Below are positions 2,899 through 7,491 of a stretch of DNA of 7,491 bases, piece after piece. The DNA is taken from NCBI GenBank assembly GCA_017437345.1, contig JAFSBJ010000021.1, forward strand, positions 1 through 7,491, written 5' to 3'. Source of the DNA: Clostridia bacterium. Its GTDB lineage: Bacteria; Bacillota_A; Clostridia; UMGS1810. Both the position numbers and the translations under genes were made by a program. Below the pieces are notes generated by a model. It was not told the origin of the DNA. It did no database searches and saw only the letters and a list, made by a program, of their open reading frames with translations. How positions within the stretch are numbered: position 1 is the first letter of the stretch; the number at the start of each line of letters is the position of its first letter.

Positions 2899-3105
2899 AT
2901 GTCAATCAAATGCACAGTTATTATTCAGAAAGAGGAAAACTGGTATGTTGCAACTGATGCTGTAAGCGGTGTTGCATCTCAGGGAAAAACAATAGATGAA
3001 AGCCTTGCGAATTTAAAAGAAGCACTTGAGCTTTATTATGAAAATAACCTTCCCGAAACCAATCCGTCACCAATATTTGTCACCACTATGGAGGTGGCTG
3101 TCTGA
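2899..3105 (+). CDS. hicB: HicB-family antitoxin
   Basis: This 68-residue protein has the HicB partial RNase H-like fold pattern: a first strand (KCTVIIQKEENWYVATD), a middle GVASQGKTIDESLANLKEALELYYE helix, and a C-terminal strand (PIFVTTMEVAV). HicB proteins bind and neutralise the mRNA-cutting HicA toxin. This one is the short form, consisting of the toxin-binding domain alone with no helix-turn-helix or ribbon-helix-helix tail, so operon autoregulation would need another means. A GGAGGT site (3091-3096) inside its 3' end serves the next gene, whose ATG immediately follows the stop codon. The order is antitoxin first. It appears intact although its toxin partner is frameshifted. Confidence 0.85.
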   Translation: MSIKCTVIIQKEENWYVATDAVSGVASQGKTIDESLANLKEALELYYENNLPETNPSPIFVTTMEVAV

Positions 3106-3329
3106 ATGGGTTCAAAGTATCCTGTTGTATCACCAAAGGAACTTATATCGGCACTTGAAAAGTTTGGTTTTTACTTTATAAGCCAAAAAGAAGCCATATG
3201 AAATATAGTAATGGAAGTAGAGTTGTTATTATTCCAAATCACTCAGAAATTGCAAAAGGAACTTTAAAAAGTATTCTTACGATGGCAAATATAAGTTTGG
3301 AAGATTTTTTAAACATTCTTAATAATTAA
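3106..3329 (+). pseudogene. hicA: HicA-family mRNA interferase toxin, broken by a single-base frameshift
   Basis: The reading frame from ATG 3106 gives 28 HicA-like residues (VSPKELISALEKFGFYFISQK), then three non-homologous residues and TGA at 3199-3201. From 3192 the neighbouring frame continues the family pattern without a gap: SHMKYSNGSRVVIIP, then KGTLKSILTMANI, to TAA 3327-3329. Adding one base after the A-run 3185-3189 (a G would give QKGSHMKY) restores a full HicA double-stranded-RNA-binding-like fold with the catalytic His at 3195-3197. The toxin should therefore be inactive as read. Restart at ATG 3198 would lack the His. Possible causes are a recent mutation, a sequencing or assembly error, or -1 recoding on CAAAAAG, which would give Arg in place of Gly. 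Both halves are clean, so any loss is recent. Confidence 0.85.
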
Positions 3330-3399
3330 AAGCAGGTTGAGCCCGCATTCGTGTGGCAATCATAAATTAATATGAATCTCATTCTGCGAATTTAAAATG

Positions 3400-3449
3400 A
3401 AAAAACCTCTCAAAATTGCTTAAATATGAGCAATTTTGAGAGGTTTTTT
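3400..3449. terminator. Bidirectional intrinsic terminator between hicBA and the copper operon
   Basis: A perfect 21-bp inverted repeat (arms 3400-3420 and 3429-3449) encloses an eight-base loop. The arms read A6-CCTCTCAAAATTGCT and its complement ending in T6, so the transcript ends in a U-run in either direction. It lies 71 bases after the hicA frame and serves the convergent csoR-copA operon as well, if transcription passes the repeat element at 3451-3626. Confidence 0.9.
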
Positions 3450-3450
3450 G

Positions 3451-3626
3451 CTATATGTTTGCTTTGCAAACGCGATATATTCGTCTATGACAAATTCGAT
3501 ATAATTTTTTATCAAAAATTTCGATATGATATGAATTTTCAAAACACATCGCGAAGCGATATATCGTGCCGCAGGCATATCGCGTGCACCAGCACATATA
3601 GAGAATTTTTAAAAATTCATATCGCT
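3451..3626. repeat. Gene-free stretch of nested hairpins built on CGATAT/ATATCG, probable interspersed repeat
   Basis: No protein gene is supported here. CGATAT or its complement ATATCG recurs at least six times. A 12-bp inverted repeat (3528-3539 with 3612-3623) encloses small tight hairpins: ATCGC-GAA-GCGAT (3548-3560), TGCC-GCA-GGCA (3567-3577) and GTGC-ACCA-GCAC (3584-3595), plus a 16-bp perfect palindrome (3603-3618). TTTGC-TTT-GCAAA lies to the left, at about 3458-3470. From memory, similar GCGATATATTCG-rich hairpin elements are scattered between genes in many Clostridia; this identification is recall, not a search. It would lie in the 3' untranslated part of the copA mRNA. Confidence 0.6.
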
Positions 3627-3652
3627 GCATAGTGTCATTCAGGACACTATGC
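3627..3652 (-). other. Stem-loop overlapping the copA stop codon
   Basis: GCATAGTGTC (3627-3636) pairs perfectly with GACACTATGC (3643-3652) around a six-base loop. The loop holds most of the TGA stop codon, and one arm encodes the last residues of CopA. No T-run follows directly on the minus strand, so it is not a normal intrinsic terminator; it may protect the mRNA 3' end or mark the border of the repeat element. Confidence 0.55.
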
Positions 3653-7078: not shown

Positions 7079-7107
7079 TTGAAAATTGTGAATTTGTGTG
7101 ATATAAT
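7079..7107 (+). promoter_or_regulatory. Strong promoter driving the RNA/tRNA-fragment array
   Basis: TTGAAA (7079-7084) and a perfect TATAAT (7102-7107) are 17 bases apart, with an extended -10 (TGA at 7099-7101). The predicted start, seven bases on, is G7114, the first base of a paired RNA stem. No protein gene with a ribosome site follows, so the product is probably untranslated RNA. Confidence 0.8.
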
Positions 7108-7113
7108 GACTAA

Positions 7114-7206
7114 GTTGTTATTGCAGAAGAGATAGCATTTATCGCCTGATGGTTTTTCGGGCACCGCAAGAGTCACGCGGGAAGCGCGGCTGCCACAATA
7201 ACAAAA
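7114..7206 (+). ncRNA. Candidate structured RNA, promoter-proximal copy
   Basis: The predicted transcript begins with a nine-base arm TTGTTATTG (7115-7123) exactly complementary to CAATAACAA (7196-7204); CAG (7124-7126) can pair with CTG (7190-7192), bulging CCA. The inside is G/C-rich against an A/T-rich background and can form CCGC/GCGG pairing. Compared with the second copy it lacks about 30 bases on the 5' side and has C7143 where the second copy has T, spoiling a small hairpin. No U-run follows. I recognise no named RNA family; it lacks the conserved SRP, 6S, T-box and GEMM signatures I know. Confidence 0.5.
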
Positions 7207-7285
7207 TATATTTCATGATTTATACAAAAACTTAATATTTATAGATATGCGGATATGGCGGAACTGGTAGTTTTTTGCCGAGCGC
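7135..7285 (+). repeat. 206-bp tandem repeat, first copy
   Basis: These 151 bases recur at 7341-7491, an offset of 206, with only two differences (C7143/T7349 and C7162/T7368). The unit comprises the 3' part of the RNA candidate, an A/T-rich spacer, a 22-base tRNA-Leu start and a T-run. Confidence 0.95.
7249..7270 (+). pseudogene. 5' fragment of a tRNA-Leu gene, first copy
   Basis: Twenty-two bases match the start of a Firmicutes tRNA-Leu as I recall it: acceptor strand GCGGATA, TG, D-stem GCG and a D-loop GAACTGGTAG. The normal continuation (ACGCGC, then anticodon arm, variable arm, T arm) is replaced by TTTTTTGCCGAGCGC. No TATCCGC partner for the acceptor strand occurs downstream in the window, so this cannot fold as a tRNA. 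Confidence 0.7.
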
Positions 7286-7336
7286 TGCCTGTGGCAGATG
7301 AAGCGAAGGCTAAAAAGGCGCAACGGTCGAAAAAAC
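7270..7336 (+). other. Imperfect inverted repeat joining the tRNA fragment to the next RNA unit
   Basis: GTTTTTT at 7270-7276 is complementary to AAAAAAC at 7330-7336. Inside it, CCG (7278-7280) can pair with CGG (7324-7326), and GCGC (7282-7285) with GCGC (7318-7321). CTGCC-TGT-GGCAG (7285-7297) forms a tight inner hairpin. The segment begins exactly where tRNA-Leu similarity stops, so it may be an inserted hairpin element, or simply the 5' half of the RNA unit with alternative pairing. Confidence 0.4.
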
Positions 7337-7403
7337 AAAGGCATTTATTGCCTGATGGTTTTTCGGGTACCGCAAGAGTCACGCGGGAAGCGCGGCTGCC
7401 ACA
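7290..7403 (+). ncRNA. Candidate structured RNA, second and more complete copy
   Basis: Several nested pairings can form: TGTGGCAG (7290-7297) with CTGCCACA (7396-7403); GCGC (7318-7321) with GCGC (7390-7393); CGGTCGAAAAA (7324-7334) with TTTTTCG (7359-7365) and ACCG (7369-7372); and an end hairpin AGGCA-TTTAT-TGCCT (7339-7353). Together they give a closed fold of about 114 bases. Its 5' side is longer than in the first copy and its closing stem uses the inner part of the same 3' strand. A 50-codon open frame crosses it but has no ribosome site. No known family is recognised. Confidence 0.5.
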
Positions 7404-7491
7404 ATAACAAAATATATTTCATGATTTATACAAAAACTTAATATTTATAGATATGCGGATATGGCGGAACTGGTAGTTTTTTGCCGAGCGC
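7341..7491 (+). repeat. 206-bp tandem repeat, second copy (cut by window end)
   Basis: It repeats 7135-7285 with two substitutions and stops only because the window ends, so more copies, or an intact tRNA-Leu gene, may follow. Confidence 0.95.
7455..7476 (+). pseudogene. 5' fragment of a tRNA-Leu gene, second copy
   Basis: Identical to the first fragment, again breaking off after GGTAG into TTTTTTGCCGAGCGC at the window end. Repetition of the same break argues that the truncated form was duplicated together with the RNA unit. Confidence 0.7.

Follow-up and report, generated by a model that had tools for sequence, protein, structure and literature searches.

A conserved two-hairpin element of about 109 bp interrupts partial tRNA copies in gut Clostridia: a candidate family of small mobile DNA

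Why does a clostridial contig end in repeated starts of a tRNA-Leu gene, each broken off at the same place in the D-loop and joined to a foldable segment? The window, i.e. the whole stretch of 7,491 nt that was analysed, encodes an M18 aminopeptidase, a copper ATPase, a metal-sensitive repressor and TspO, and the contig looks clostridial. A first-pass annotation had described its end as a 206-bp tandem array of a structured RNA unit joined to the first 22 bases of tRNA-Leu, and a repeat search of the window bore out the array: two repeats of 151 nt each (7135-7285 and 7341-7491), spaced by 206 nt, are identical at 149 of 151 positions, and both contain the first 22 nt of tRNA-Leu, GCGGATATGGCGGAACTGGTAG (7249-7270 and 7455-7476). 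Directly 3' of each tRNA-Leu piece the next element copy begins. Tandem Repeats Finder did not report the array at its threshold. ARAGORN detected no complete tRNA in the whole 7,491-nt window, in agreement with the annotated lack of a tRNA remainder. Both repeats had been said to carry the 3' part of a foldable segment; copy 1 is indeed partial, whereas the segment as then delimited is itself a truncated copy of a full element located at 7271-7379. The first core in the window thus lacks its 5' part, and the third ends at the contig end. The features are as follows.

7079..7107, + strand: sigma-70-like promoter TTGAAA-17-TATAAT, 5' of the array; 11 of 12 consensus matches, TG before the second hexamer
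7135..7173, + strand: truncated first element copy (3' part of the second hairpin and the CCGCAAGAGT end), a repeat of 7341-7379
7174..7195, + strand: tail of unit 1, with the D-stem continuation ACGCG, its partial reverse complement and CTGCCA (by reading)
7196..7248, + strand: AT-rich spacer/leader of unit 1 (by reading)
7249..7270, + strand: tRNA-Leu 5' piece, positions 1-22, cut in the D-loop after GGTAG (repeat; intact counterpart in locus L278)
7271..7379, + strand: complete two-hairpin element (core); covariance model R1 matches 7273-7379 with 85.5 bits, E 2.7e-18
7380..7401, + strand: tail of unit 2 (by reading)
7402..7454, + strand: spacer/leader of unit 2 (by reading)
7455..7476, + strand: second tRNA-Leu 5' piece (repeat)
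7477..7491, + strand: start of a third element copy, ended by the contig end (by reading)

The copy scored by R1 in the window is itself one of the 20 seeds of this model. Its extension to 7271 was made by eye, the first-hairpin strand TTTTTTGCC lying opposite GGCTAAAAA at 7308-7316. CTGCCA in the tail of unit 1 can pair with TGGCGG of the tRNA, and the relative L278 displays the same layout. The sequence at 7079..7107 is only suggestive of a tRNA-Leu operon promoter, because the region holds 3 promoter-like sites compared to a shuffle mean of 1.9. Elsewhere in the window, a strong inverted repeat with a T-run adjoins an AT-rich intergenic stretch with many short gcgatatatcgc-like palindromes, beside the copper ATPase operon (3401-3449 and 3480-3640), and at 2899-3330 a HicB-like open reading frame (DUF7387 above cut-off, weaker HicB-like matches) is followed by an apparently interrupted HicA-like reading frame.

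Among the loci compared, the closest relative of the window unit was L278 (70.7% over 239 nt), from an Oscillospiraceae SUG1655 MAG (G680). There, a tRNA-Leu 5' piece, the core, the tail CAAGAGTCACGCGGAGTGCGGCTGCC, a leader and an intact tRNA-Leu(CAG) follow each other in this order, with a terminator-like hairpin recognised by eye after the tRNA. A similar core is found in the same genome at tRNA-Leu(TAG), accompanied by the acceptor sequence of that tRNA (L295). Judged by the layouts of L278 and L295, the window most likely ends within an array 5' of an intact tRNA-Leu. An assembly artefact is unlikely, because the two repeat copies differ at 2 positions and because another genome has an array of three units, closed by an intact tRNA-Ser, within a contig of 154 kb (L097/L145).

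The foldable segment is a conserved element of approximately 109 bp, composed of two hairpins and a short linker. In hairpin 1, an outer and an inner helix are accompanied by a bulge of 6 nt (GATGAA and variants); hairpin 2 consists of a nearly fixed base, GCGGT/ACCGC, a variable stem and a small internal loop. The entry point to the family was a 29-nt match on a replicon of Vescimonas fastidiosa, from which the search pattern GGCAGATGAAGCG...CGGTC was derived. This pattern had matches in 14 of 295 genomes of one order, of which two (L102, L108), chance matches within coding sequence, were dropped. Alignment with MAFFT of 20 of the 21 detected cores (alignment A1; one of three L097 copies dropped) provided the seeds for the covariance model of the core, R1. 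With R1, 2-8 copies per genome were found in the 12 seed-giving genomes and 37 copies, one of them a seed, on the V. fastidiosa replicon NZ_AP023416.1. A search of the unit against clostridial genomes, proposed in the first-pass annotation, proved productive: cores turned up in 47 of the 391 genomes surveyed from one class, a lower bound given the strict filters and the 9 candidates scored per genome. R1 also matched 18 of 50 named genomes, one of which (G149) had supplied seeds; by title, 5/8 Oscillospiraceae and 0/7 Lachnospiraceae in this set were positive. The Rfam search likewise proposed returned no family for the window array at E 1, and a comparison of the window and of 13 loci with 4227 Rfam families gave no match to the core, the listed matches being tRNAs, or sub-threshold matches overlying tRNAs or lying outside the core. 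A known RNA family was rejected on this basis. The element represents a widespread, apparently undescribed family of gut Clostridia.

All counts given below for 156 cores include tandem and near-identical copies and are therefore not independent. Outside the 156 are the matches of the 50-genome set except those of G149, the other 36 copies of NZ_AP023416.1, and most class-survey matches (391 genomes) that lack a locus and score below about 45 bits. Two variants of the fold were encountered. At L173 (764-908, genome G037) the core measures 145 nt, exceeding its relative L163 by 36 nt and bearing an additional hairpin within the loop of the first hairpin, and at two tRNA-Pro loci (L159, L182) the base of hairpin 2 has changed from GCGGT/ACCGC to GCAACT/AGTTGC, a compensated change.

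Half of the cores (78/156) lie within 400 bp of an intact tRNA, and 76 of these 78 are on the same strand as the tRNA. For comparison, 1.0% of positions are this close to a tRNA in a baseline of 80 loci (1.22 Mb) fetched for another gene. Of the remaining cores, 46 have full flanks and no tRNA, and 32 have a flank under 400 bp, mostly at contig ends; at some cores without a nearby tRNA, tRNA pieces are visible by eye. The core interrupts a partial copy of the tRNA, usually right after GG, in one of two layouts established by reading. In type a (28 loci), a tRNA 5' piece, the core, a short tail and a leader precede the intact tRNA. In type b (48 loci), the intact tRNA is followed by a terminator-like hairpin, a head that is mostly antisense to the local tRNA, the core and a tRNA 3' piece, which often extends to CCA and is often followed by a second terminator-like hairpin. 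The upstream tRNA piece of type a ends exactly 3 nt before the R1 start in 20 of 28 loci and within -3 to +4 nt of it in 25 of 28, and the break falls at tRNA position 18-23 (20 loci), 37-38 (3 loci), 53 (1 locus) or 60 (1 locus). Several loci (L145, L148, L230, L244, L252) contain arrays of two or three units.

The tRNA pieces mostly resemble the local tRNA. No other isotype matched the sense piece as well as the local tRNA did in 24/28 type a and 36/48 type b loci, while the antisense match, compared to every other isotype, was best for the local tRNA in 39 of 48 type b heads and 9 of 28 type a tails. In some type b loci (L249, L263, L268) the sense copy is lost and the antisense kept, which hints at a function on the tRNA. 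These layouts bear on the suggestion that the unit mimics a tRNA 5' end, for example as an RNase P substrate. As 48 of the 76 linked copies lie 3' of the tRNA and are followed by 3' pieces, this was rejected as a general reading; moreover, the core is also found in palindromes unrelated to tRNA, and its helices tolerate G·U no better than A·C (see below). A guide RNA, with the downstream tRNA stretch as the guide, was also discarded, since the sense stretch after the core is, by eye, short or absent at many loci.

Protein genes are occasionally involved. In different genomes (L158, L196, L226; also L198) the core starts at the stop codon of a gene whose product ends in GTIEWE or ATVEWE; from this terminal peptide we take the gene to be guaA, probably, in L158, L196 and L226. 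The recurrence suggests repeated or inherited use of one site. In L146, L147 and L156 the core lies a few codons into a gene whose remainder is degenerate and whose start, a short peptide, presumably is that of spoVT.

Several observations concern the mobility of the element. In genome G576, tRNA-Gln (L231) and tRNA-Arg (L245) have neighbouring cores that are 99% identical; at both loci, head and tail derive from the local tRNA. In G565 cores with 93% identity lie beside tRNA-Lys and tRNA-Asn, again with flanks from the local tRNA. When core identities were compared for 154 of the 156 cores (two cores under 80 nt dropped), the nearest neighbour at another locus was in the same genome for 46/154 cores (shuffled mean 3.0) and had the same isotype and side for 24 of 76 labelled cores (shuffled mean 3.6). 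This double excess indicates that spread within genomes and inheritance at fixed loci both occur. Between genomes, identity was 0.91 for tRNA-Ser units and 0.90-0.92 for tRNA-Met units; some loci thus look vertically conserved, with which a host function would also fit. G012 has a unit without core that adjoins a core-bearing one (L111) and can be aligned to filled units of L107 and L106. Among the copies on the V. fastidiosa replicon, 24 that belong to a single subfamily have a mean identity of 0.936, with flanks at about chance level, and one palindrome occurs within 800 kb in 48 empty copies (exact pattern) and 19 filled copies (looser pattern), for instance empty as GGGCCGATGTGGGCATCGGCCC and filled as GGGCCGATGTGG-core-TCATCGGCCC. 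Only one of the 37 copies lies within 400 bp of a tRNA, and the core is here also found in REP-like palindromes that are not tRNA. A second, diverged subfamily comprises 13 copies of approximately 102 nt that end in CACGACGGT or similar, 12 of 13 on the plus strand; six of these (L326-L331, NZ_AP023416.1) lie in different G-rich palindromes. Together, near-identical cores beside different tRNAs and filled as well as empty palindromes indicate mobility.

The insertion target was evaluated for 149 of the 156 cores, seven lacking 60 nt of upstream sequence. GG was present at -8 to -2 of the core in 119/149, compared to 23-44 in background windows; GT[AG]G was present at -9 to -2 in 39/149 (background 3-9) and absent there in 110/149. 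Types of left and right end co-vary, e.g. GGA with AACAGG 25 times. A MITE would have terminal inverted repeats and a short target duplication; by eye, the ends of the element, GGA...CAACAGG, are not inverted repeats, and no clear duplication was visible at filled V. fastidiosa sites. The V. fastidiosa copies are distributed 29:8 over the strands (tested against 0.5) of a replicon with mostly rising cumulative GC skew (checked over 800,000 of 860,917 bases), a strand bias that is weakened by the 32:19 skew of the empty palindromes themselves. Neither an excision product nor a new insertion was observed. In 800 kb of one record, the 24 left and 24 right halves that belong to one subfamily included no larger autonomous copy with a gene between the hairpins.

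Is this fold selected in RNA or in DNA? Its conservation is evident from covariation: the score was 0.245 in the 20-sequence MAFFT alignment (0.105 shuffled), 0.451 for 87 sequences (0.135 shuffled) and 0.543 for 67 distinct sequences (0.162 shuffled), and was each time reached by 0/500 shuffles. The count of further pair types showed no excess in the 20-sequence alignment (reached by 250/500 shuffles); it was reached by 22/500 shuffles for 87 sequences and by 1/500 for 67 distinct sequences. The foldable segment of the window also surpassed 200/200 dinucleotide shuffles, with z = -2.85 under RNA and z = -3.18 under DNA parameters, and folding energy thus does not discriminate between the two. 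RNA folds tolerate G·U pairs, whereas the mirror pair A·C is not tolerated. Counted in phylogenetically non-independent cells, the core helices contained 54 G·U versus 60 A·C over all pairs and 12 versus 18 over well-aligned pairs, while the acceptor and T stems of tRNAs from the same loci (75 distinct CCA-ending tRNAs out of 104 tRNA calls) contained 64 versus 6. Since G·U is no commoner than A·C despite strong covariation, the core fold seems to be selected in DNA, either single-stranded or as a cruciform, and not in RNA, a conclusion that is strong but not final; given equal G·U and A·C, neither strand appears to be selected as RNA. A2 and A3 were fitted to a covariance model, which if anything should favour G·U over A·C, so that this bias would oppose the DNA result. 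The low G·U count could also have another cause. The annotated "structured RNA" sits poorly with a covariation pattern lacking G·U excess. A motif filed by covariance tools as "structured RNA" can instead be a DNA fold, and the comparison of G·U with A·C is applicable to other catalogued RNA candidates.

These counts weigh against the core being an RNA domain that regulates tRNA genes in cis or trans, the flanking sense and antisense pieces pairing with the tRNA to control its folding, processing or read-through. Such a regulator would account for the co-direction with the tRNA in 76 of 78 linked copies, for the type b heads that best match the reverse complement of the local tRNA (39/48), for antisense DNA outlasting the sense copy (L249, L263, L268) and for the conservation of some loci between genomes; however, besides the missing excess of G·U over A·C, the single V. 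fastidiosa copy of 37 within 400 bp of a tRNA and the mere 9 of 28 type a tails that are locally antisense beyond other isotypes make it an unlikely explanation. Quite improbable is an outlying REP family that depends for its movement on a Y1 HUH transposase related to TnpA-REP/RAYT. GT[AG]G precedes the core in 39/149 copies against 3-9 in the background, V. fastidiosa copies lie within REP-like palindromes and its replicon NZ_AP023416.1 encodes one Y1 transposase (838643-838999), but the tetranucleotide is missing from its place in 110/149 copies, the element has about 109 bp and two unlike hairpins instead of 20-40 bp, and no Y1 transposase was matched at E 1e-5 in 10 of 25 element-bearing, possibly incomplete genomes. 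Neither a Y1 transposase (16/26 element-bearing genomes or records versus 14/20 genomes without detected element) nor a reverse transcriptase (9/26 versus 7/20) co-occurred with the element, and both were rejected as partners on these 46 genomes and records.

A local tandem duplication at a single tRNA gene, or an assembly artefact, would involve no element. It fits the 149/151 identity of the copies and a contig that ends in the repeat; it is refuted for the family, whose cores recur in dozens of genomes both next to various tRNAs and at sites without one, and with a complete array inside a long contig of another genome it is very improbable for the window. An intron in the tRNA D-loop, self-splicing or excised in some other way, would explain why tRNA pieces are interrupted at recurring positions. 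Both tRNA halves, however, were complete in 0/76 linked copies by local alignment (score and end cut-offs), and no Rfam intron matched, so that we give this explanation hardly any credence. As to a phage origin, which was also rejected, three queries had no match in phage records and no viral association was established; four IMG/VR contigs carry the core.

We consider it moderately probable that the window is an array at the head of a tRNA-Leu operon and that the element belongs to a small non-autonomous mobile DNA family of Oscillospiraceae-like Clostridia. Of the interpretations first offered, duplication at a tRNA locus and a tRNA-targeting element are retained in combination, and only the RNase P substrate or tRNA mimic is given up as a general reading. 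Each window unit would be a broken tRNA-Leu copy whose D-loop is interrupted after GGTAG by the element of approximately 109 bp, and an intact tRNA-Leu(CAG) should lie past the contig end. We infer that the element may be recognised as folded single-stranded DNA by a recombinase or transposase acting in trans and inserted 3' of GG within hairpin loops, i.e. in REP-like palindromes and tRNA arms. In single-copy tRNA genes, insertions would survive solely with an accompanying intact copy, which would explain why cores are seen in broken copies adjoining an intact tRNA; the units would then be amplified by tandem duplication. What was observed is a covarying fold that is conserved, multicopy occurrence, sites both filled and empty, the GG preceding most cores, near-identical cores next to different tRNAs, co-direction with the tRNA and the lack of a G·U excess over A·C. 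Simple insertion does not explain the antisense DNA ahead of type b cores (39/48). The inverted tRNA copies may be a by-product of insertion, perhaps through template switching at hairpins, or may act on the tRNA. A further-reaching proposal treats the family as mobile DNA of a separate class: a folded, single-stranded element that has a recombinase of its own and homes to hairpin loops, mainly of tRNA genes. Its insertion would copy a stretch of the local tRNA in inverted orientation, and the matched antisense segment may act on that tRNA. This we regard as possible but doubtful. Small mobile palindromic DNA is already known, and it is the enzyme that would decide whether the family merits separate rank.

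tRNA genes are landing sites for large integrating elements. In the literature searched, no title or abstract opening reports an element of the present kind in tRNA loops, and the core may be among the anonymous candidates of PMC8040213. Here, a non-coding element of approximately 109 bp is found time and again inside partial tRNA copies that adjoin intact genes of gut bacteria, with flanks remade from whichever tRNA is next to it; the family appears to spread between tRNA genes, and its fold looks DNA-like rather than RNA-like. The question is testable, as V. fastidiosa MM35, isolated from a human, is cultured and sequenced and carries 37 copies on one replicon.

Several known systems resemble the family in part. 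Integrative elements that restore tRNA genes leave a broken tRNA end beside an intact tRNA, as is seen here; unlike these, the present copies have no body between them, and the tRNA often resumes on both sides of the core. The attC sites of integrons are folded single-stranded DNA with conserved extrahelical bases, and have RYYYAAC/GTTRRRY sites and an integrase. The arrays described here share with them short tandem units with one folded site each, but no core sites were recognisable by eye and the units are tRNA pieces, not gene cassettes. Derivatives of IS200/IS605 have two end hairpins, co-varying ends and insertion 3' of a short motif. According to a passage in PMC6006769, IS200/IS605 elements use single-stranded DNA of the lagging strand. 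Their non-autonomous derivatives and the element have in common two hairpins at the ends, the lack of a coding region, co-varying end types and insertion 3' of a short motif; the hairpins of the element, in contrast, differ from each other, its target is GG, often in hairpin loops, and no co-occurrence with Y1 transposases was seen in the sample tested. In REPs, the hairpin is preceded at 0-2 nt on its 5' side by the tetranucleotide GTAG or GTGG, and processing takes place on single strands, according to passages in PMC6006769 and PMC3733652. Like REPs and REPINs with their TnpA-REP (RAYT), the element forms small, multicopy, intergenic, bulged DNA hairpins without coding capacity, often with G-rich sequence 5' of the hairpin. 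Unlike REPs of 20-40 bp, it has approximately 109 bp and two unlike hairpins, contains GT[AG]G in a minority of copies, is not consistently accompanied by a Y1 transposase, and sits inside tRNA pieces and inside REP-like palindromes themselves. Of the known kinds, REPs come closest to the family, even though it departs from them in size, architecture, tetranucleotide and host enzyme.
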